From: Candidatus Saccharibacteria bacterium
GTDB lineage: Bacteria > Patescibacteriota > Saccharimonadia > JAGOAT01
Reading direction: 5' to 3'
Assembly: GCA_017983775.1 (NCBI GenBank)
Contig: JAGOAT010000005.1
Coordinates: forward strand, 1-41,714
Length of the DNA stretch: 41,714 nucleotides
In this document: positions 2 through 41,707 of the stretch, one piece after another
Layout: each line of letters starts with the position of its first letter
Position numbering within the stretch: the first letter of the stretch is position 1
Made by a program: the position numbers and the translations under genes
The notes under the pieces: generated by a model
Database searches by the model: none
Seen by the model: the letters and a program-made list of their open reading frames with translations, nothing else
What the model was told of the DNA's origin: nothing

Positions 2-2215
2 ATTATTATTTCTTTATTAAACATATTATTGGGGAGTTCTGCATATATTAGAAATCGTAAAAGTTCAAATTACATAGTATATTTTATATTTTCTATATTT
101 ACAGCATTTTGGATTGTCAGTAATTATTATACAGATTTTGCTAGTACTTTTGAGATAAAATACTTTGCTAATAAGATAGCATTCTTTTCGGCTCATATAT
201 CGGTCGTGTTAATTTGGGGATTTTCAAAGTTATTTATTGATGGTGTTTTATCAAGATTAGAGCGTATATTAATTTTTCTTTCATTTTTTATAAATGGCCT
301 GATTATTTTTTCAGGTATAGTTATCCAAGGTGCCACGGTAGATGATACAGGATTTCATCCCAGACTTAGTAGCTGGTACATATTATATATAGGCTCTCTA
401 ATAATTTTTTTAGGTTTTTATTTTAAGAACCTTATTATTGGCTATAGGAATGCGGTAGGAAAAGATTATTTTTATAAAAAGAGTCAGATAAGATATATAT
501 TATATGGCTCATTAATATTTGCTTTTTTTTCAGTTATGACCAACGGTATACTACCAGCAATAACAGGAAACTGGGCATTATCTAAGATAGGTCCCTTATT
601 CTCTATAGTTCTGGTTTCAAGTATCAGCTACAGTATTGCTAAGTACAAACTTTTTGATATAAAAGGATCAACCTTTAGGGCAATGATCTACTATCTATCA
701 CTATTCTTTGTAGTCTTGGGCTATGCAGCATTATTATTTGGCTCTACATTGATATTTTTCACAGTGGGCGGTGAGGTTACCAGGGTTCATCAAGTCACCT
801 ACATCCTCCTAGCAGTCCTCCTAGTATTTACCTTCCAGCCACTAAGAAACTTCTTTGAAAAGTTAACTAATCATTTGTTCTTTAGAGATAGATATGATGC
901 TCAAGCTTTGATTGCTAGACTGGGAGATATCTATTCTTCCAATTACAAGCTTGTTCCAATCTCTACCAAGACCTTACTAGAAATCTACAAGACTATCAAA
1001 ATAGAGAGAGGCAATATCATCGTATTCGATCAGGATTACAAAGAATATTTCAGAGCAAACCAAAACTTTATGAAGCCAGGTAAGCTAGAATTCCGAGCTT
1101 CATCAGATACTATTCAAGACTTTCAGCAACTATTTGGTACAGATACATATGTCTATGATGAGTTGCTCGAAGGTAAGAAGAAGTTCTTTATGCAACACCA
1201 CGGCATCAGCCTAATATTTCCCTTAATCAACAACAAGAAGCTCAATGGCTACTTATTGATATCTAGTAAGAGAAGTGGAGATATCTACAATAGCCTAGAT
1301 GTTTCTACTCTAAGCATTATCTCCAACGACCTAGCAATTGCTTTAGACAACGCCTTGTCTGTTGCAAAGATAGAAGACTTCAATGCCACCCTCCAACACA
1401 GAGTCAAATCCGCTACAGAAAAACTCCGCACTGCCAACAAGAATCTAAGAGCCCTGGATAAAGCCAAGGATGAGTTCCTGTCTATGGCCTCTCACCAGTT
1501 AAAGACTCCAATCACCACTATCCGTGGCTATAGCGACCTGTTTATCACCGGAGAACTAGGTAAGGCTACCCCAGATCAAACAATGGCCGCTAGAAGAATC
1601 ATGACCACTGTTGGCAATATGGACTCTACTATCAATGATCTACTCAATGTCTCTAGAATATCCCAAGATAGATTCTTCATCCAGAGAGAAGAAGTAGACC
1701 TCAAAGAACTAATTGAGCTAGAGCTAGAAAATCTAATCTCTACAATCGAAGACAAAGGACTCAAGCTCATGACAGACTTAGATCCGATTCCAACTCAGGA
1801 TCTAGACAAAGCTAAAATCCGTCAAGCAGTAATGAATCTAATTGATAATGCTATCTACTATACCCAAGAAGGATCAATCAAGGTTATCCTTAAGCTTCTA
1901 AGCAGAAGCGAATTAAAAGCAATCATCAAAGACCAGGATATCAGCTCTACTCCAGATTTTTCAGGAGACCCAGAAGACAGGCTCTATCCAGTATTCCAAG
2001 TAACAGATACTGGTATTGGTGTACCCCCTGACAAACAATCCAAGCTCTTTAGTAAATTCTATCGTGCAGACAATGCCCAAAGAACCAGGAGTGATGGTAC
2101 TGGTCTAGGTATCTATCTAGTCAAGAGAGTAGTGGAAGATCATGGAGGAGGAATATTCTTCTCATCCCCAATCAATAACAACAAGGGCTCAACCTTTGGG
2201 TGGTGGGTGAGGTGA
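2..2215 (+). CDS. Membrane sensor histidine kinase HK1 (5' end outside window)
   Basis: Sensor kinase of a two-component system. The frame is open to base 2 and the codons before the first possible start (TTG at 29) still encode a hydrophobic helix, so the true start lies upstream. About seven membrane helices form an N-terminal 7TM-type sensor, followed by two more helices, a GAF-like linker and HisKA plus HATPase_c domains. Visible motifs are the H-box SHQLKTP (His codon 1493-1495), N-box NLIDNA, G1 DTGIGVP, F-box FSKFYRA and G2 GTGLGIYLVK, so the kinase looks intact. Everything from base 793 onward also appears at 5155-6577 with no difference found, while the sensor half differs. The stop overlaps the GTG start of the next kinase (GTGA), indicating translational coupling. 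No response regulator is adjacent in the window; one could lie upstream. Confidence 0.9.
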   Translation: MIISLLNILLGSSAYIRNRKSSNYIVYFIFSIFTAFWIVSNYYTDFASTFEIKYFANKIAFFSAHISVVLIWGFSKLFIDGVLSRLERILIFLSFFINGLIIFSGIVIQGATVDDTGFHPRLSSWYILYIGSLIIFLGFYFKNLIIGYRNAVGKDYFYKKSQIRYILYGSLIFAFFSVMTNGILPAITGNWALSKIGPLFSIVLVSSISYSIAKYKLFDIKGSTFRAMIYYLSLFFVVLGYAALLFGSTLIFFTVGGEVTRVHQVTYILLAVLLVFTFQPLRNFFEKLTNHLFFRDRYDAQALIARLGDIYSSNYKLVPISTKTLLEIYKTIKIERGNIIVFDQDYKEYFRANQNFMKPGKLEFRASSDTIQDFQQLFGTDTYVYDELLEGKKKFFMQHHGISLIFPLINNKKLNGYLLISSKRSGDIYNSLDVSTLSIISNDLAIALDNALSVAKIEDFNATLQHRVKSATEKLRTANKNLRALDKAKDEFLSMASHQLKTPITTIRGYSDLFITGELGKATPDQTMAARRIMTTVGNMDSTINDLLNVSRISQDRFFIQREEVDLKELIELELENLISTIEDKGLKLMTDLDPIPTQDLDKAKIRQAVMNLIDNAIYYTQEGSIKVILKLLSRSELKAIIKDQDISSTPDFSGDPEDRLYPVFQVTDTGIGVPPDKQSKLFSKFYRADNAQRTRSDGTGLGIYLVKRVVEDHGGGIFFSSPINNNKGSTFGWWVR
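793..2215 (+). repeat. 1,423-bp direct repeat, copy A (HK1 kinase half)
   Basis: Bases 793-2215 match 5155-6577 at a constant offset of 4,362 with no difference found by reading both copies. The bases flanking each end differ (792 a versus 5154 t; 2216 a versus 6578 t). The repeat starts inside a predicted membrane helix and ends exactly at the stop codon. The sequence left of the boundary in HK1 is visibly more AT-rich than the repeat. Confidence 0.95.
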
Positions 2216-4356
2216 ATCAGATAGTCATAACCTCAATCATCCCAGTTCTGATCCTCTTTGTTTTTGGTGGATTGGTATTCAAGCGTGGGATGAATCGCAG
2301 GCTTTCGCATTGGTTTTTATTCTTTGCATTGACGGGCGGACTTTGGCAGGTTGCTACATTGGTAGCAAGCCTGTTTATAAGCGATCAGATCACAATTTTT
2401 GCCAATCGTTTGACATTTGTTTTTGGGTTTTTATCAATTATCGCATTTTATGGAATGAGCCGAGCTTACCTGGGTGAAATCAAACCCTTCAGTAGATTAG
2501 GCAAGTTGAGGCTTTGGATCTTTGCAGTAGTTTACTCAGTAATTCTATTGACAGATCAAGTAGTCGAGGGTTACCAGAATCAAAATGGTTTCTTGGTCGA
2601 TCAACGAGGAAGGTTTTATTGGAGCTTTGTGATTATTCTATTTGCAGTCTTAATTCCTTCGGTCAAAAACCTAATAAGAGCAATGGACACAGTAGAGAAT
2701 GTTAAGAAGATTCAGATCAAGGTGATGCTGACGACTTATGCGCTGGGAATCACACTGGTAGTCTTGACCAATTTAGTGCTACCAAGTTTTGTTAGTGAGG
2801 GATGGGTTAGTCAGATTGGATTATTTGTAATGGCTGGGATGGTAATAGTCAATTCTTATGTGATACTAAGAAATAAGATTTTTGATCTCAAGCTAATTTT
2901 TAGTCAGTCATTCGCATTTACTCTGGCAGTCCTGGTACTAGCTCTAATTTATAGCTTCTTTGCCAGTTATTACTTAGGCGGATTAATAGGGCTGGATCAC
3001 AAGCTGACTTCAGTCGAACGCTTGGCTTTTATTCCAATTATTATTATTTTAGCAATACTTTTTCAGCCTATGCTCAAATTGTTTGAGAGGGCTACTTATA
3101 AATGGTTTTATCAATATCATTATTACCCTAGTCAACTGATTAGTGAAGTCAGTCGGATACTCGCTAGAGATCTGAAGATTGAGGAAATGATTAAGGACAC
3201 GGCCAAGATCATTGTATCAGGAATGGGTATTGATAATATTCAAGTGATAGTCTATGAGCATAATCGGATTGCTTTTAGCTATGCTACTGATTATAAGATA
3301 TTTAATACTAAGAACTGGCACTATCTCAAAGATGAGGTAATATTTGTCGATCATATACTTGATACGGCTACATTGTATCAGCTTAAGAGCCAAGGAGCAG
3401 AGTTGATTTTTCCAATGATTCTCAAGGGTAAGCTGATTGGGCATATCATTCTCGGTCGTAAAAAGGGCGGGGATATTTATACAGATGGTGATTATCAGAC
3501 TATAGAAATCGTTGCTGGAGACTTGGCGATTGCCCTAGATAATGCCAAGGTTAATTATCGTCTGAAAGATACACTGGAGAAATTGAGAGCACTAGATAAG
3601 AGTAAGGATGAGTTCATTTCAATTGCTTCTCATCAGCTTCGTACACCCCTCACTACAATTCGAGGTTATAGTGAGATGTTGGCAGATCAAGAGTTTGGCA
3701 AAATTAGCCTAGAGCAAAAAAATATTTTAAACCAAATCAATCAAGCTGGTCAGAATATGAATCAATTATTAGAAGATTTGCTAGCTACCTCACGTCTGGC
3801 TCAGGGCAGATTGGTAATCAATAAGACTGAGTTTGATTTTGCCAACCTCGTCAGGGAGGAGTATCACTATAGACAAAATTCTCTGAAAAAAGATTTGGAA
3901 TTGAAGCTGGATCTGCCTGACTCCATCGAGCTATTTGCTGATCAAGGAAAGCTCAGACAGGTAGTTATCAATTTGATCGATAATGCTATTCAATATACAG
4001 ATCGAGGTAGTATTTTGGTTCGAGCTGAAGTAATCAGTGGTAGCAAGGTCATCAAGATGCCAGTGCATGGGTCTGATAATATTGCTCCCAGGCGTAAATA
4101 CTTAAGCTTTCAGGTGATAGATACTGGGATCGGAGTCCCAATTAGTAAACAAAAACAATTATTTAGTAAATTTTATCGTGCAAGCAATGCTAAGATTATT
4201 AGACCCGATGGTAACGGCTTGGGTGTTTATTTGGTTCGTGAAATCGCTAGAATTCATCATGGCAATGTGATCTTTCAATCGCCAGTGGAATTGAACCAGG
4301 GTTCAGTTTTTGGGATTTGGATACCATATACTAGTAGTAGAGGTAACAATGGATAA
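2212..4356 (+). CDS. Membrane sensor histidine kinase HK2
   Basis: Second of three tandem 7TM-type histidine kinases, about 714 residues. I chose GTG 2212 because it overlaps the upstream TGA (GTGA); an in-frame GTG also exists at 2200. Seven to nine membrane helices, a GAF-like linker, then H-box SHQLRTP, N-box NLIDNA, G1 DTGIGVP, F-box FSKFYRA and G2 GNGLGVYLVR. It has the same architecture as its neighbours, but the kinase half is clearly diverged in protein and codon use, so it was not part of the event that made HK1 and HK3 identical. It ends 8 nt inside the start of HK3. The signal sensed is unknown. Confidence 0.9.
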   Translation: MNQIVITSIIPVLILFVFGGLVFKRGMNRRLSHWFLFFALTGGLWQVATLVASLFISDQITIFANRLTFVFGFLSIIAFYGMSRAYLGEIKPFSRLGKLRLWIFAVVYSVILLTDQVVEGYQNQNGFLVDQRGRFYWSFVIILFAVLIPSVKNLIRAMDTVENVKKIQIKVMLTTYALGITLVVLTNLVLPSFVSEGWVSQIGLFVMAGMVIVNSYVILRNKIFDLKLIFSQSFAFTLAVLVLALIYSFFASYYLGGLIGLDHKLTSVERLAFIPIIIILAILFQPMLKLFERATYKWFYQYHYYPSQLISEVSRILARDLKIEEMIKDTAKIIVSGMGIDNIQVIVYEHNRIAFSYATDYKIFNTKNWHYLKDEVIFVDHILDTATLYQLKSQGAELIFPMILKGKLIGHIILGRKKGGDIYTDGDYQTIEIVAGDLAIALDNAKVNYRLKDTLEKLRALDKSKDEFISIASHQLRTPLTTIRGYSEMLADQEFGKISLEQKNILNQINQAGQNMNQLLEDLLATSRLAQGRLVINKTEFDFANLVREEYHYRQNSLKKDLELKLDLPDSIELFADQGKLRQVVINLIDNAIQYTDRGSILVRAEVISGSKVIKMPVHGSDNIAPRRKYLSFQVIDTGIGVPISKQKQLFSKFYRASNAKIIRPDGNGLGVYLVREIARIHHGNVIFQSPVELNQGSVFGIWIPYTSSRGNNG

Positions 4357-6577
4357 CTATACAATATTGAGCGGACTAGCAATCTTGACAGTTGGAGTGA
4401 TTGGCCTAATTATCCTACTACGTAATTACCACAATCAAGCTATTCAGTGGTATGCACTTTCCAATCTCAGCTCAATTGTTTGGTTGATAGCAACATACAT
4501 TAGCGACTATGGTTATAGCTATGACCTGAAGTTATTTGGTCATCGTCTTGGCTATAGCTTTAGCTATATGATAGTAGGCTCAGTCTTTGGTCTTGCTACT
4601 GTCTTCATGCGTCAGAAGTTTAGTAATTATCAATCTTATTTATTGATTGCTGTATCGGGAATAATGGCCTTTGTGACATTGGTCTCAAATAATATTATTA
4701 GCGATGTGGATATTACCACTGCACCCAGTAAGCCAATAGTAGGTGATTGGTATTTTCTCTATATAATCACTTTTGTTACTTTGATTCTTTATACTGCAAT
4801 AGCTTTTCTTATCGCTTATAGACAGGTAGACATTTACCAGAAGAGTCAGATCAAGTTGATTGCTATTGGTCTGATTGTGATTATCAATGCTGGCGTGATC
4901 ACCAATATTATTATGCCAGTAGCTTTTGGAATTAGTTGGAGTATTCGTTCTGCTCCATTATTATTAATTCTTTTTTCTGGGTTTAATACATTTGCAATCA
5001 CTAGGCGGCATTTATTTGATATTAGGGCTACTTTAGCAAGATATTTTTTCTATATTGTGACCTTAATTAGTTTGGTAGTTCTTTATAGTGTTATTTTATT
5101 TATTGGAGTGGGTTTATTTTTTAAGAACAATCCAAACCTGACAATCCCTAGACTAGTCACCTACATCCTCCTAGCAGTCCTCCTAGTATTTACCTTCCAG
5201 CCACTAAGAAACTTCTTTGAAAAGTTAACTAATCATTTGTTCTTTAGAGATAGATATGATGCTCAAGCTTTGATTGCTAGACTGGGAGATATCTATTCTT
5301 CCAATTACAAGCTTGTTCCAATCTCTACCAAGACCTTACTAGAAATCTACAAGACTATCAAAATAGAGAGAGGCAATATCATCGTATTCGATCAGGATTA
5401 CAAAGAATATTTCAGAGCAAACCAAAACTTTATGAAGCCAGGTAAGCTAGAATTCCGAGCTTCATCAGATACTATTCAAGACTTTCAGCAACTATTTGGT
5501 ACAGATACATATGTCTATGATGAGTTGCTCGAAGGTAAGAAGAAGTTCTTTATGCAACACCACGGCATCAGCCTAATATTTCCCTTAATCAACAACAAGA
5601 AGCTCAATGGCTACTTATTGATATCTAGTAAGAGAAGTGGAGATATCTACAATAGCCTAGATGTTTCTACTCTAAGCATTATCTCCAACGACCTAGCAAT
5701 TGCTTTAGACAACGCCTTGTCTGTTGCAAAGATAGAAGACTTCAATGCCACCCTCCAACACAGAGTCAAATCCGCTACAGAAAAACTCCGCACTGCCAAC
5801 AAGAATCTAAGAGCCCTGGATAAAGCCAAGGATGAGTTCCTGTCTATGGCCTCTCACCAGTTAAAGACTCCAATCACCACTATCCGTGGCTATAGCGACC
5901 TGTTTATCACCGGAGAACTAGGTAAGGCTACCCCAGATCAAACAATGGCCGCTAGAAGAATCATGACCACTGTTGGCAATATGGACTCTACTATCAATGA
6001 TCTACTCAATGTCTCTAGAATATCCCAAGATAGATTCTTCATCCAGAGAGAAGAAGTAGACCTCAAAGAACTAATTGAGCTAGAGCTAGAAAATCTAATC
6101 TCTACAATCGAAGACAAAGGACTCAAGCTCATGACAGACTTAGATCCGATTCCAACTCAGGATCTAGACAAAGCTAAAATCCGTCAAGCAGTAATGAATC
6201 TAATTGATAATGCTATCTACTATACCCAAGAAGGATCAATCAAGGTTATCCTTAAGCTTCTAAGCAGAAGCGAATTAAAAGCAATCATCAAAGACCAGGA
6301 TATCAGCTCTACTCCAGATTTTTCAGGAGACCCAGAAGACAGGCTCTATCCAGTATTCCAAGTAACAGATACTGGTATTGGTGTACCCCCTGACAAACAA
6401 TCCAAGCTCTTTAGTAAATTCTATCGTGCAGACAATGCCCAAAGAACCAGGAGTGATGGTACTGGTCTAGGTATCTATCTAGTCAAGAGAGTAGTGGAAG
6501 ATCATGGAGGAGGAATATTCTTCTCATCCCCAATCAATAACAACAAGGGCTCAACCTTTGGGTGGTGGGTGAGGTGA
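4349..6577 (+). CDS. Membrane sensor histidine kinase HK3 (kinase half identical to HK1)
   Basis: Third tandem kinase, about 742 residues. ATG 4349 is chosen because AGAGG sits at 4339-4343, five bases upstream; the frame also opens earlier (4310), inside HK2. The 7TM-type N-terminal sensor is unlike HK1 in sequence. From base 5155 to the stop at 6577 it matches 793-2215 with no difference found, including the GAF-like linker, H-box SHQLKTP (His codon 5855-5857), N-box and G boxes. The protein therefore joins a distinct sensor to the same transmitter as HK1. Two sensors driving one interchangeable kinase module suggests signal integration onto one response regulator (inference). pgk follows after 34 nt. 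Confidence 0.9.
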   Translation: MDNYTILSGLAILTVGVIGLIILLRNYHNQAIQWYALSNLSSIVWLIATYISDYGYSYDLKLFGHRLGYSFSYMIVGSVFGLATVFMRQKFSNYQSYLLIAVSGIMAFVTLVSNNIISDVDITTAPSKPIVGDWYFLYIITFVTLILYTAIAFLIAYRQVDIYQKSQIKLIAIGLIVIINAGVITNIIMPVAFGISWSIRSAPLLLILFSGFNTFAITRRHLFDIRATLARYFFYIVTLISLVVLYSVILFIGVGLFFKNNPNLTIPRLVTYILLAVLLVFTFQPLRNFFEKLTNHLFFRDRYDAQALIARLGDIYSSNYKLVPISTKTLLEIYKTIKIERGNIIVFDQDYKEYFRANQNFMKPGKLEFRASSDTIQDFQQLFGTDTYVYDELLEGKKKFFMQHHGISLIFPLINNKKLNGYLLISSKRSGDIYNSLDVSTLSIISNDLAIALDNALSVAKIEDFNATLQHRVKSATEKLRTANKNLRALDKAKDEFLSMASHQLKTPITTIRGYSDLFITGELGKATPDQTMAARRIMTTVGNMDSTINDLLNVSRISQDRFFIQREEVDLKELIELELENLISTIEDKGLKLMTDLDPIPTQDLDKAKIRQAVMNLIDNAIYYTQEGSIKVILKLLSRSELKAIIKDQDISSTPDFSGDPEDRLYPVFQVTDTGIGVPPDKQSKLFSKFYRADNAQRTRSDGTGLGIYLVKRVVEDHGGGIFFSSPINNNKGSTFGWWVR
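5155..6577 (+). repeat. 1,423-bp direct repeat, copy B (HK3 kinase half)
   Basis: Second copy of the repeat at 793-2215, same orientation. Recombination between the copies would remove 4,362 bp, including all of HK2 and the sensor of HK3, and would leave HK1 followed directly by pgk. Lack of divergence even at synonymous sites points to recent duplication or continuing gene conversion. Confidence 0.95.
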
Positions 6578-6611
6578 TAACAATCTAATAATTATGGAGG
6601 TAAGCAATAAA

Positions 6612-7784
6612 ATGACAAAAGGTGATTCAGTAATAATGATCAGGGGGGACTATAATGTTCCACTCCTTGAGGGCAGGATAATCGATGACTATCGTTTGGT
6701 GAGAGGGCTTGATACTATCAAGCAAGCTTTGAAGAGGACAAATAGGCTGATTTTGGCTAGTCATCTAGGGAGGCCAAAATCTATTGATGACAAGCAATAT
6801 AGTCTTATGCCAGTAGCAAAAGGTCTTAGTAGATTACTAGGTAGAGAAGTAGTGCTATTAAATCAGTTTGAATTGGATTTGGATATGAAAGCAGAAGACA
6901 TCTGGGCGCAAGGCTCAATAGTGATGCTTGAAAATCTCAGGTTCGATCCACGCGAGAAGGCTAACGACCCAGCTTATATTACAGAGATATTACGCAGTAT
7001 AGGACTAAACAATCAAGATCTTGGGTCACTAATCTATATTAACGATGCTTTTGCGGTTGCCCACCGGGCTGATAGTAGTGTTGAGGCAGGGATAAGAAAG
7101 TTTGAGCTTGAAAGAGGGGAGTTGATGACAGCTGAAATTAGTGAAATACAGAAGCTTCTTGGAGAGGTAGAAAGACCTTATGTGGCAGTGATCGGTGGAG
7201 CAAAAGTTTCTGATAAGCTTCAGGTCTTAGAGAGTTTATTGACAAAGGTAGACACCTTGATTATTGGTGGGGCAATGGCCAATACTTTCTTGCTGGCCTC
7301 AGGTCATCAGGTAGGTAATAGTCTAGTTGAGCCAGAATTATGTTCAGAGGCTATTCGAATCAGCCAGAGAGCAAATGATTTGGGCGTAAAGCTGTTTTTA
7401 CCATTTGATGTAGTAACCGCCAAACAGATAGGGCCAAATATCCAACATACCAATAAAGGGATATACTCAGTAAATTCCCAGGATATCATTCTAGACATTG
7501 GCAAACAGTCAGTTCAGGCTTGGACTAAGATAATCTCTGAGGCACATACAATATTCTGGAATGGAGATCTGGGGATGGCTGAAATTCGGGCATACAGTAA
7601 AGCGAGTGAACAGATAGCTCAAGCAATTGCGAACTCAGAGGCCTACAGTTTAGTCGGGGGCGGAGATACAGTTAGCCTGGTGCGCAAATTGAGGTTGGAT
7701 AGTCAGTTCAGCTTTATCTCGACTGGTGGTGGGGCTAGTCTGGCACTGGTCTCTGGTCAGCCGATGCCTGGATTGGTAAAATAA
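6612..7784 (+). CDS. pgk: Phosphoglycerate kinase
   Basis: Catalyses 1,3-bisphosphoglycerate + ADP to 3-phosphoglycerate + ATP in glycolysis, in the cytoplasm. Recognisable PGK landmarks in order: RGDYNVP (family R-x-D-x-N-V-P), HLGRP, ENLRF, NDAFAVAHRADSS, GGAKVSDKL, WNGDLGMAE, GGGDTVSLV and the C-terminal STGGGASL. The length of 390 residues is normal. An ATG at 6594 is in frame, but it contains the GGAGG (6596-6600) that serves as Shine-Dalgarno for ATG 6612, so the later start is preferred. One oddity is NGDLG where the family usually has NGPMG in the nucleotide-binding loop. It follows the HK3 stop closely and may be co-transcribed. Confidence 0.95.
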   Translation: MTKGDSVIMIRGDYNVPLLEGRIIDDYRLVRGLDTIKQALKRTNRLILASHLGRPKSIDDKQYSLMPVAKGLSRLLGREVVLLNQFELDLDMKAEDIWAQGSIVMLENLRFDPREKANDPAYITEILRSIGLNNQDLGSLIYINDAFAVAHRADSSVEAGIRKFELERGELMTAEISEIQKLLGEVERPYVAVIGGAKVSDKLQVLESLLTKVDTLIIGGAMANTFLLASGHQVGNSLVEPELCSEAIRISQRANDLGVKLFLPFDVVTAKQIGPNIQHTNKGIYSVNSQDIILDIGKQSVQAWTKIISEAHTIFWNGDLGMAEIRAYSKASEQIAQAIANSEAYSLVGGGDTVSLVRKLRLDSQFSFISTGGGASLALVSGQPMPGLVK

Positions 7785-8163: not shown

Positions 8164-8280
8164 CATATTCCAAAGTCCTGCAGGGATTTATGGGATATCC
8201 AGCATTCCGTATTATCCTAATTCACTAGAGAGATGGATCCCCCGTAAACCCTTCCGGGTTCGGAGGATGACAAGATAGGG
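8164..8280. repeat. Dispersed palindromic intergenic repeat R1
   Basis: Non-coding. The left part (8164-8207) resembles 23954-23997 around a small hairpin (AAGTCC/GGATTT). The right part shares CCAGCATTCCGTATTATCC and the GGATCCCCCGTAA...CGGAGGATGAC core with copies at 19.6 and 20.5 kb. The core hairpin here reads AACCC-TTCC-GGGTT, whereas the other copies read AAGCTC-TTC-GAGCTT: the stem sequence changes but pairing is kept. Confidence 0.8.
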
Positions 8281-8339
8281 GAGGAGGGGTTTCGAAATAT
8301 CATGAGGCAGGTTTGAATTTCAGAGGATGGCAGGACAGA

Positions 8340-16164: not shown

Positions 16165-16845
16165 ATGGCGCAGAAGGTACTATTAGTCGAAGATGAGATT
16201 GGTATAGCTGAGATAGTTTCTGATTATCTTGTTCGGGCGGGATATCAAGTAGTAGGGGCTTGTGATGGTATTGAGGCTTTGCAGAAGTTTGATCAAGTAA
16301 TTGGCTTGGTGATACTAGATATTAACTTGCCAAAGTTATCTGGATGGGAAGTTTGTCAGAGAATTAGGCAGGAGTCTATAGTGCCAATTGTAGTATTGAC
16401 AGCTCGACAACCTAGTCAAGATGAACTCAGAGGTTTTGAATTGGGCGCAGATGATTATATCCGTAAACCTTTTGATCCAAAGGTATTGCTGGCTAGGATT
16501 GGCCGATTTTTATCAAATAAAAAAGGTGGTCAAATATTGCTATCTGGTGACATTAGTTTGGATTTGGGTAGCTTGATTCTCAAGAAGAATGGACAGAAGG
16601 TCAATCTAACAGTCGCTCAAATCGATATCCTGGAGGTTTTGATTGGTAATCAAGGGCAAGTTATTAGTAGGCAACGCTTGATTGACGAGGGCTACAAAGG
16701 CGACCAATTTGCAGATATTTTTGATCGAACTATAGATGCTCATATCAAAAATATCCGCAAGGCATTGGGTGATGATCCAAGGCAACCAAAGTACATTGAG
16801 ACAATCCGGGGCAAAGGTTATCGTTGGGTAAAAGCTGATGTTTAG
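16165..16845 (+). CDS. OmpR/PhoB-family response regulator
   Basis: 226 residues. The receiver domain has the acidic pair LVEDE, the phospho-acceptor Asp in LVILDINLP (about residue 52), Thr in VVLTARQ and Lys in IRKPFDP. The C-terminal winged helix (about residues 130-225) has the IDAHIKNIRKALGDDP and IRGKGYRWV signatures of the OmpR/PhoB class. It binds DNA when phosphorylated by its partner kinase, whose ATG overlaps this gene's stop by 8 nt. It is the only response regulator in the window. Confidence 0.93.
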   Translation: MAQKVLLVEDEIGIAEIVSDYLVRAGYQVVGACDGIEALQKFDQVIGLVILDINLPKLSGWEVCQRIRQESIVPIVVLTARQPSQDELRGFELGADDYIRKPFDPKVLLARIGRFLSNKKGGQILLSGDISLDLGSLILKKNGQKVNLTVAQIDILEVLIGNQGQVISRQRLIDEGYKGDQFADIFDRTIDAHIKNIRKALGDDPRQPKYIETIRGKGYRWVKADV

Positions 16846-17944
16846 AAAGCTCTTTGGGACTATGGGCTCAAGAATAGTCTTGCTAGTAATCACAACAGCC
16901 CTGATGACAGCAACCTTGTCCTCATTGTTCTTGAATTGGCAGATAAGCAGTAGGTTTGATAGCTTCATAGGTCGTCAGTCTGATGAGTTTGGTTCCGAAC
17001 TTAAGAGATCTAGACCAATGGTCGAGCCTTTTATTTATAAGGTTAGTGATGAGCTCAGACAAAGTTTTTTGTCAGATATCAATCAAGTGATCTTTTTGGC
17101 ACTTCTTATTACTTTGCCACCTGCTGTCTTGATCGCTTTATTGATCAGTGACAAATATTTGTTTCAAGCTAGAAGAATTCGCAAAGGGCTAGAAGATGTT
17201 CGAGCCGGGAAACTAGCTAGGCTCAAGTTTGATAGTGGGATTATTGAAATTGGAGATTTGGTCAAGGCCTTCAATGGCGCAATAGAGGCTTTAGAAAGGG
17301 TAGAAAAATTGAGAGATGACTTGATCGGAGATGTTAGCCATGAAATTGCTACCCCTTTGACCAAGCTCAAGGTTCAGATTGCGGCAATTCAGGATGGGCT
17401 TTATAGTCCGGATAAGAAAAGGATTGCTAGATTAGCTGAGGATGTAGATTATTTAGATTTTTTGATTAATAGGTTGAGATACTATAGTGAGCTTAAATCT
17501 GTCAATCATGTTGATAAAAAGGACATAAATTTGCTTGGTTTTTTAGAAAATATTACCCAAGGATACCTTGATCTTGAGGTTGAATTCATTGTAGATAAGG
17601 AGTTGGTAATTCAAGCCGACAGTAATTACCTTAGAGAAATAATTGAAAACCTAGTAAGCAATGCTAATAAGTACGCTGATCCAAGGAAGCTCAAGATATT
17701 TGCAGATAGGAATTCGATTCAGTTTCAGGATTTTGGGCCAGGCATTGATCAGGCTGATTTGCCATATATCTTTGAGAGACTTTATCGAGTCGAAAAATCG
17801 CGCAATCGCCAGACTGGTGGCATGGGGTTAGGTCTGGCAATCGTCCAAACCTTGGTCGAGGCGCATGGTTGGAGAATTTTGGTTGATAGTGACGATAAGG
17901 GAACTGTGTTTACAATTGACTTGCTTCGGTTGAGTAGGGAGTAG
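16838..17944 (+). CDS. Sensor histidine kinase paired with the OmpR-type regulator
   Basis: 368 residues. Two membrane helices (about residues 10-30 and 85-108) flank a short extracytoplasmic segment of about 50 residues. A HAMP-like linker, HisKA with SHEIATPLTKLK, N-box ENLVSNANKYA, G1 DFGPGID and G2 GGMGLGLAIVQTL follow, so it looks catalytically complete. It overlaps the response regulator by 8 nt, the usual arrangement for a cognate pair. It belongs to a different kinase subfamily from the three 7TM kinases. Confidence 0.93.
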   Translation: MFRKLFGTMGSRIVLLVITTALMTATLSSLFLNWQISSRFDSFIGRQSDEFGSELKRSRPMVEPFIYKVSDELRQSFLSDINQVIFLALLITLPPAVLIALLISDKYLFQARRIRKGLEDVRAGKLARLKFDSGIIEIGDLVKAFNGAIEALERVEKLRDDLIGDVSHEIATPLTKLKVQIAAIQDGLYSPDKKRIARLAEDVDYLDFLINRLRYYSELKSVNHVDKKDINLLGFLENITQGYLDLEVEFIVDKELVIQADSNYLREIIENLVSNANKYADPRKLKIFADRNSIQFQDFGPGIDQADLPYIFERLYRVEKSRNRQTGGMGLGLAIVQTLVEAHGWRILVDSDDKGTVFTIDLLRLSRE

Positions 17945-19579: not shown

Positions 19580-19739
19580 CAAAATCCTGCAATCTTCATC
19601 TCGTCATCTTCGGGTTGCCCGAAGGGCAAGACCCGAGATCCAGCATTCCGTATTATCCTAATTTGCTAGAAAGGTGGATGCCCCGTAAGCTCTTCGAGCT
19701 TCGGAGGATGATGATACAAGGGAGGGTCGGAGGATGACT
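19580..19739. repeat. Dispersed palindromic intergenic repeat R2
   Basis: Non-coding. Contains a 31-nt unit at 19602-19632 (CATCTTCGGGTTGCCCGAAG core) found inverted at 33266-33296 with one difference. It also has CCAGCATTCCGTATTATCC, shared with R1. The core 19676-19737 matches 20526-20587 with about two differences. The gene-free stretch 19422-20051 otherwise shows only promoter sequence near its right end. Confidence 0.85.
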
Positions 19740-20480: not shown

Positions 20481-20519
20481 CTCAACGAATATAGCATTAG
20501 AGCCTTACCGAGATTCATC

Positions 20520-20650
20520 CGAAAGATGGATCCCCCGTAAGCTCTTCGAGCTTCGGAGGATGACGATACAAGGGAGGGTCGGAGGATGACAATAAAGAGC
20601 CTCCGGACAATCGGAGGATGACAAGACGGGGGAGGATTGCGGAGGATGAC
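20520..20650. repeat. Dispersed palindromic intergenic repeat R3
   Basis: Non-coding, filling much of the 20481-20805 gap. Core GGATCCCCCGTAAGCTCTTC...GGAGGATGAC is near-identical to R2. The GGAGGATGACAA unit then recurs in short tandem form near 20581, 20611 and 20641. Hairpin AAGCTC-TTC-GAGCTT. The remaining gap to 20805 holds only the promoter of the next gene. Confidence 0.85.
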
Positions 20651-40642: not shown

Positions 40643-41707
40643 CTAATGAAGTCGTTCGATTGTAATCTTATTATTTGAATAACCATAACCAATAATGCAA
40701 GTAACCCTATAAGCTATATCATTAGTTTCATCATCCAGTATTAGCTCTTGGATCGAGCCATGCATCGGAAAATTGGCTGTTGATTGCCAGTACTGCCAGG
40801 TAGTTGTGACGACGTCACTTTGCCTGGCAAATCCTGTAATAGTGCTGAGAGCACCAGTACCAACAGGAAGGCTAACATAATTATTGATAGATGTGCCACT
40901 AACTGTAAAAGAGCCACTAGTGGCGGCAAATTGGAGTGAACGGTTCCCGCTGGTAGAGACCCTGACCTGGAGATTCCCCAGCGCAACAGCAACACCAGCG
41001 TTAACATTACCACTCGCCTTGGCTATGGTCGAGCTGGTAAGGCTTTGCTCACCGATTTGACCCGTTATAGGGTCTCTGACTAGATAAGAACTGGCATTGG
41101 TAATGCTTGGTGGGACGGATCCTAGTCTGAAGGTTCCATTTAGATCTAGAGTGAATTGAGGATTATTGTTTGCAATGCCGAAGTTGCCATTGGCTGAGAA
41201 TCTTCCGACTTCTGCGGAATTGGTCTTGAATATTAATGATTGAGAATCTGTAGTGCCGATAAAGTTCGAACTAGTGATGCCGGAATTACCATTGATCGAC
41301 CAGTAGTCAGCGATAGAGCCGGTGTTATCATTACTACATACCCAAGAGCTACCATTCCATTTGAGTATTTGATTTGTACTACAAGTATTTGTCAAGCTTA
41401 ATCCACTGGGAAGTTTGATTAGGCCTGAGCCAGTGGCTAAGAGTAATTGAATATCAAGATCACTCCCAGTGAGAGAAGTGTCGATCACCCCATCATCAGT
41501 GATTAGTCCTACTGTACCAGCTGGTCCAGTAGCTCCCGTAGCCCCAGTCTCACCTTGTATACCCTGAGCACCAGTAGCTCCCGTAGCCCCAGTCTCACCC
41601 TGAATACCTTGTATCCCCTTTTCTCCAATAGCTCCCTTAGCCCCCTTCACACCTTTAGTTCCTTTTGTACCAGTCATCCCCTGACCCCCCGTCACCCCTG
41701 ACGCACC
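40643..41707 (-). CDS. Collagen-like (Gly-X-Y) surface/fibre protein, N-terminus interrupted
   Basis: About 22 Gly-X-Y triplets (GTKGTKGVKGAKGAIGEKG, GETGATGATGAQGIQ and so on) form a collagen-like stalk. A ~280-residue beta-rich region follows, with tail-fibre-like phrases (ILKWNGSSWVC, FSANGNFGIANNNPQFTLDL), ending in ITIERLH. Such proteins are trimeric adhesins or fibres. The likely start is GTG 41693-41695 or ATG 41675-41677, but triplets (GAS, GVT) continue upstream to an in-frame TAG at 41708-41710 and there is no signal peptide. A missing or frameshifted N-terminus is therefore likely. Confidence 0.75.
   Translation of the reverse strand, partial: GASGVTGGQGMTGTKGTKGVKGAKGAIGEKGIQGIQGETGATGATGAQGIQGETGATGATGPAGTVGLITDDGVIDTSLTGSDLDIQLLLATGSGLIKLPSGLSLTNTCSTNQILKWNGSSWVCSNDNTGSIADYWSINGNSGITSSNFIGTTDSQSLIFKTNSAEVGRFSANGNFGIANNNPQFTLDLNGTFRLGSVPPSITNASSYLVRDPITGQIGEQSLTSSTIAKASGNVNAGVAVALGNLQVRVSTSGNRSLQFAATSGSFTVSGTSINNYVSLPVGTGALSTITGFARQSDVVTTTWQYWQSTANFPMHGSIQELILDDETNDIAYRVTCIIGYGYSNNKITIERLH
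41526..41599. repeat. Direct repeat inside the collagen-like gene
   Basis: A 29-nt identical unit at 41526-41554 and 41571-41599 (period 45 bp = 15 codons), encoding the GETGATGAT triplets. Such in-frame repeats can change length by slippage. Confidence 0.8.

Follow-up and report, generated by a model that had tools for sequence, protein, structure and literature searches.

The window analyzed here is an entire contig (C5), 41,714 nucleotides in length, from a metagenome-assembled genome of a Candidatus Saccharibacteria bacterium; the genome comprises 787 kb in 43 contigs and is estimated to be 97% complete. At the left end of the window, three histidine kinase genes lie in tandem and are followed by pgk, all on the forward strand. 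The first gene encodes HK1 (positions 2 to 2215), a 7TM-type sensor histidine kinase with an open reading frame that is open at its 5' end. Since the contig starts inside this gene, HK1 has neither a start codon nor upstream neighbors in the window. HK2, a diverged 7TM histidine kinase (2212 to 4356), starts with the GTG at 2212, and the GTGA at 2212 to 2215 is common to the HK1 stop and the HK2 start. HK3, a second 7TM-type sensor histidine kinase (4349 to 6577), starts with the ATG at 4349, within the 3' end of HK2. The pgk gene (6594 to 7784), recognized by an NCBIfam match, is the constant downstream neighbor of this kinase in several relatives.

All three proteins have a HisKA domain with the phospho-acceptor histidine and a HATPase_c domain (matched in HK1 at 1.6e-13 and 3.9e-20, respectively), as expected of HisKA-type sensor histidine kinases, and H502, N616, and N620 are invariant in the 20 sequences compared. 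HK2 matches the HisKA_7TM profile (PF16927) at 31.6 bits (1.9e-7), which is above the cut-off of 28.6. HK1 and HK3 have no match to this profile, although residues 2 to 217 of an AF2 model of HK3 (pLDDT 78, pTM 0.42) form seven long helices, with two further helices before the cytoplasmic part. The window also contains a separate response regulator/histidine kinase pair (16165 to 17944), the N-terminal part of which is unrelated to the three 7TM kinases, and a 91-bp intergenic element with a hairpin-like core, which is present in three copies (8194 to 8284, 19635 to 19725, and 20487 to 20577; 100, 82, and 66%).

HK1 and HK3 each consist of a sensor half (2 to 792 in HK1 and 4349 to 5154 in HK3, the latter being covered by the AF2 model) and a kinase half. 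A first-pass annotation of this DNA had claimed that the two kinase halves are without any difference, and our alignment of 793 to 2215 with 5155 to 6577 bears this out: there are 0 differences over 1,423 bp, at an offset of 4,362. Both copies begin at the last transmembrane helix and continue through the linker, HisKA, and HATPase_c to a TGA stop (2213 to 2215 in HK1 and 6575 to 6577 in HK3), and just beyond the edges of the repeat, identity falls to background. We excluded a chance match as the source of an identity of this length. The sensor halves had been described as different and HK2 as diverged, and this too is correct, with about 22 to 23% amino acid identity between the sensor halves of HK1 and HK3 and 36% between HK2 and the shared kinase half. 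The HK1 sensor half is AT-rich (GC3 of 0.25) and has no close relative. In the whole genome, the only full-length matches to the kinase half are these two copies, with no third.

Resolution of the assembly graph, or the merging of similar but different kinase halves or strains, could have produced the second copy or made it perfectly identical to the first. Several contig ends elsewhere in this 43-contig assembly overlap by exactly 126 bp, which points to short reads assembled by a de Bruijn graph with k close to 127, and the repeat exceeds any such read. HK1 is also at the extreme end of its contig, and no identical kinase pair is present among the matches listed from the 201 other genomes with homologues. 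However, the graph needs read support for both entries into the repeat and for both exits from it, and since the repeat path was walked twice, all four of these junctions should be real. The reading frames continue through both copies, the stop-start overlap of the repeat with HK2 and the adjacency of HK3 and pgk look natural, and the composition of HK3 shifts abruptly where the repeat starts (see below). We regard an assembly artefact as an unlikely explanation for the locus. Nevertheless, metagenome assemblers can merge near-identical variants, and the perfect identity is therefore an upper estimate. A search for exact overlaps between the start of the contig and the other contig ends of the same genome gave no link. 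In relatives, there are other contigs that, like the window, have their start within the sensor half (G025:C11, G027:C34, G170:C5, G331:C30, and G336:C103), and strain polymorphism could be what breaks assemblies at this point. At the right end of the window is a collagen-like triplet-repeat gene (40643 to 41695, reverse strand), 72 bp of which recur at the end of contig C32; this repeat is therefore the probable cause of the break in the assembly there.

The shared half differs in composition from the rest of the contig. Its third-position C/(C+T) value is 0.52, compared with about 0.30 elsewhere (p = 4e-13), and isoleucine is encoded by ATC in 28 of 42 instances, compared with 222 of 811 elsewhere. 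In a blind scan of HK3, the change point is at 5126, with an interval of 5102 to 5159 that covers the start of the repeat. The likelihood scan of HK1 puts the change point at 539 (2-unit interval, 506 to 623; 0 of 1000 shuffles), a site upstream of the repeat at which the third-position C versus T value goes from 0.16 to 0.51. No change point was found in a blind scan of HK2. The codon usage of HK1 from 530 to 790 is like that of the repeat (p = 0.33), and that of HK3 from 4889 to 5152 is unlike it (p = 1e-6). Judging from this codon usage, the transmitter was presumably copied from HK1 to HK3. The change at 506 to 623 is probably an older sensor/kinase junction, in which case HK1 itself would be an older fusion.

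The first-pass annotation had taken the identity of the two kinase halves as a sign of recent origin. This claim is supported by the identity at synonymous sites and is weakened by the possibility that the assembler flatters that identity, and we describe the copying event as apparently recent. The switchable locus that the same annotation proposed, in which recombination would delete 4,362 bp, is no more than a possibility created by the long direct repeat.

Homologues of this kinase were found in 201 of 393 genomes at an E value of 1e-45 or better, and the closest kinase halves in the relatives compared, none of which belongs to the same species, genus, or family, are about 40 to 45% identical to that of the window. 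The comparisons below are drawn from a set of about 60 relatives (60 loci) that we selected ourselves, and the pairs within it are not independent. In these relatives, the sensor half is exchanged on a conserved kinase half. Orthologues with kinase halves that are 75 to 80% identical have sensor halves that are 25 to 38% identical (25 to 37% within family f5), and those in genus g19 are 63 to 65% identical in the kinase half versus 21 to 22% in the sensor half. Individual orthologue pairs with a kept kinase and an unrelated sensor have kinase and sensor identities of 80 and 27%, 79 and 28%, 76 and 29%, and 65 and 22%, whereas pairs that keep both halves have identities of 78 and 91% (loci L010 and L027), 73 and 67%, and 70 and 56%. 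Because some pairs, such as L010 and L027, keep the sensor at a similar kinase identity, we conclude that the sensor has been replaced rather than having decayed steadily.

These values bear on whether HK1 and HK3 might be ordinary tandem paralogues, in which the sensors have diverged rapidly under relaxed or positive selection beside conserved kinase halves, with no modular exchange. The sensors of membrane kinases are often fast-evolving, and the grouping of the HK1 and HK3 sensors as sisters was not rejected in quick trees, which were unsteady (the constrained tree beat the free tree by 34 log units). However, it is difficult to reconcile simple divergence with synonymous sites that are identical in the kinase half when the sensors have only 23% amino acid identity, or with the relatives' sensors, which at equal kinase divergence are either 67 to 91% or about 25% identical. 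The sensor and kinase trees also conflict: in careful trees of 24 loci, two kinase-defined groups were rejected as sensor clades (AU p = 3.4e-6 and 3.8e-5). Cargo, as described below, is likewise tracked better by the sensor than by the kinase. In our judgment, it is very improbable that these are ordinary paralogues.

The breakpoints of exchange are clustered. In 52 pairs of relatives, 31 breakpoints are at -60 to -40 amino acids and 8 are at 0 to +20 amino acids from the start of the window's repeat, with none between. In the AF2 model of HK3, the first of these sites falls where the seventh long helix (195 to 217) ends, and the second falls where the last membrane helix (265 to 281) begins. 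The first-pass annotation had proposed a sensor swap that gives two inputs to one kinase, through duplication or conversion of the transmitter alone, and the comparison with relatives upholds this proposal, since the swap recurs throughout the class at the same type of junction.

Across the 60 loci, the flanks are constant, and what lies between the flank and the kinase is a variable set of genes, termed cargo here. In family f4, the gene order is a gene that we take, from our reading of its sequence, to be folD-like, a divergent response regulator, the cargo, the kinase, and a fixed downstream gene, and it is the cargo alone that varies. The types of cargo include FeeM/LuxI-fold synthases; an aminotransferase with a PaaK-like ligase, ThiF, and a nitroreductase; a pyruvoyl-type arginine decarboxylase (PvlArgDC) with two small proteins; UbiA with a methyltransferase; a different methyltransferase; and an AdoMet-decarboxylase-like protein with a LuxI-like protein. 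Some cargo proteins belong to the LuxI/FeeM superfamily, with a FeeM match at 1.3e-13 in genome G016 and weaker matches in G004, G041, and G127, and the profile of the LuxI-fold cargo matches solved autoinducer/AHL synthases at 3e-5. FeeM matches are rare (12 in the 393 genomes); 8 of them have an E value below 1e-5, and in at least 6 of these 8 the next gene downstream is this kinase. PvlArgDC has 26 matches in the same genomes, at least 11 of them within about 3 kb upstream of the kinase. In many relatives, a putative signal synthase is linked to a receptor kinase.

Cargo varies with the sensor half. For 46 loci, the cargo label changes 10 times on the sensor tree (the minimum is 6, and shuffled labels give 28.9) versus 21 times on the kinase tree. 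The partial correlation of sensor with cargo, given kinase identity, is 0.477 (0 of 5000 permutations), and the correlation of kinase alone with cargo is 0.145. Within genera, pairs with the same cargo have a sensor identity of 0.38, compared with 0.23 for the other pairs (p = 5e-10, for pairs that are not independent), and kinase identity is equal in the two classes of pairs (p = 0.54). Sensor profiles built for cargo groups classified 36 of 36 left-out members, a rate that is overstated because the groups were trimmed of outliers (among those left out were the ThiF locus of G199, the ADC locus of G021, and the FeeM-type loci of G004, G027, G041, and G127). At the level of the class, these sequences indicate a sensor half that changes together with the putative signal genes, joined to a conserved kinase half. 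Two loci with UbiA/methyltransferase cargo, L246 (G227) and L244 (G140), are 91% identical in the kinase half and 40% identical in the sensor half despite this common cargo, which points to exchange among alleles within a single cargo type. In G227, the methyltransferase gene is doubled.

No synthase is seen beside HK1, HK2, or HK3 in the window; the region upstream of HK1 is off the contig, and HK2 and HK3 follow directly with no gene between. Neither the window nor the 300-bp contig ends yielded a convincing cargo gene, and searches of the genome for FeeM, PvlArgDC, and ThiF found none of these. Against the cargo-group profiles, the HK1 sensor scores best with class f20 (84.2 bits, a margin of about 3 bits) and the HK3 sensor with the FeeM/methyltransferase class (102.6 bits, a margin of about 1 bit). 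We rejected a firm assignment of either sensor to a cargo class, since these best scores are barely above the runners-up. The genome does have one LuxI-like synthase gene, near the end of contig C9 (L283:876-2112, at about 25.7 to 26.9 kb with its partner). The partner, which lies upstream, is AdoMet-decarboxylase-like (PF02675, 8.8e-9) and 67 to 71% identical to a cargo gene in the distant genomes G094, G046, G058, and G100. A broken rve-type transposase lies next to the pair and also precedes the LuxI-like gene, and the sequence downstream of that gene is something other than a kinase. The HK1 sensor scores best, narrowly, with the cargo class composed of AdoMet-decarboxylase and LuxI-like genes, and we treat this orphan pair as a lead, not a link.

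Based on the identity of the kinase halves, the difference between the sensor halves, and the comparisons with relatives, we think it probable that HK1 and HK3 are two 7TM receptors with one transmitter, copied by recombination, and that they belong to a recurrent modular system with upstream cargo that is probably used for quorum sensing. The kinase half of one kinase, probably HK1, would have been copied over that of the other, with the last transmembrane helix as the junction. The same kind of event would recur in Saccharimonadia, where the kinase half stays at one locus and the 7TM sensor is exchanged, usually bringing with it 1 to 4 upstream biosynthetic genes. The incoming sensor and enzymes could be joined to the resident kinase half through the conserved sequence around the last membrane helices. 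Most likely, the upstream genes are signal synthases and the sensor is the receptor for their product, so that the signal/receptor pair would change and the output stage would remain constant, as in agr and comQXPA. A ligand and a signaling function are predicted for the system on these grounds, and HK1 and HK3 presumably act on a shared response regulator. Tandem receptors such as HK1 and HK3 may be a transient by-product of exchange, or they may be kept for hearing two signals through one output. In its broadest form, which we advance only tentatively, this reading would have cassettes of signal enzymes and a 7TM half plugged onto a fixed kinase half throughout the class, with the window capturing two receptors on one transmitter that either hear two signals or switch between them.

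The modules could also be real and serve another purpose, if the product of the cargo is a metabolite or a modified nutrient rather than a population signal, and if sensing it serves metabolic control or interaction with a host. Enzymes of the FeeM and ThiF types may have products that are not signals. The chemical diversity of the cargo (a decarboxylase, the ThiF cluster, UbiA, and methyltransferases) would fit such a role, as would the position of pgk next to the kinase in several lineages and the fact that cultivated members are episymbionts. However, LuxI/FeeM-fold enzymes recur as cargo, and pairing with a receptor and exchange are typical of signal systems; we give metabolic sensing only a small chance and prefer the quorum-sensing interpretation.

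The arrangement proposed here resembles known signal systems in part. In Staphylococcus, the kinase part of AgrC is conserved. A hypervariable region over agrB, agrD, and agrC of the agrBDCA locus sets signal/receptor specificity (PMC10482373). As in agr, a variable signal/receptor front and a constant back are found at one locus, but agr has peptide signals and alleles of one family, whereas the exchanges seen here occur between genera and involve unrelated enzyme families. The Bacillus comQXPA locus, in the portion of the account available to us, has polymorphic signal genes and a ComP with a variable multi-TM N-terminal half beside a conserved cytoplasmic half, and that portion reports no tandem kinases with an identical transmitter (PMC4008528). 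It differs from the present system in having a peptide signal and a ComA-type regulator. The cargo families found here are enzymes, of kinds other than the peptide signals AgrD and ComX and their partners AgrB and ComQ. In genomes of the Candidate Phyla Radiation (CPR), 18 LuxI and 51 CqsA homologues adjoin sensory kinases and are predicted to function in quorum sensing; in the sections of that study that we could consult, the pairs are described by adjacency only, and we found there no mention of sensor halves being swapped while the kinase half stays, of the junction, or of a comparable range of cargo (PMC7567580). Domain shuffling that joins new sensors to existing transmitters is general in histidine kinases (PMC8895600), but here it is recurrent at one locus, with preferred junctions, and involves upstream genes. 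HisKA_7TM kinases (PF16927) similarly have an N-terminal 7TM region on HisKA/HATPase_c, and HK2 matches them, but the sensors of HK1 and HK3 do not reach the model. We found no report of sensor-half exchange with cargo in Saccharimonadia in the literature searched, a body to which subscription papers and preprints do not belong.

To our knowledge, the ways in which ultrasmall episymbiotic bacteria communicate with each other or with their hosts are poorly understood. If the interpretation that we favor is correct, a single locus would identify the chemical dialect that a strain produces and perceives, and the maker of each sensor's ligand would be predictable from the sensor. It would provide a list of enzyme families with likely signal products and would reveal natural points at which sensors and kinases can be joined. 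The pherotype principle, familiar from agr and com, would then apply to small-molecule enzymes as well and would reach the Candidate Phyla Radiation. In Saccharimonadia, the swapping of antennae may provide a chemical language that can be quickly re-tuned.
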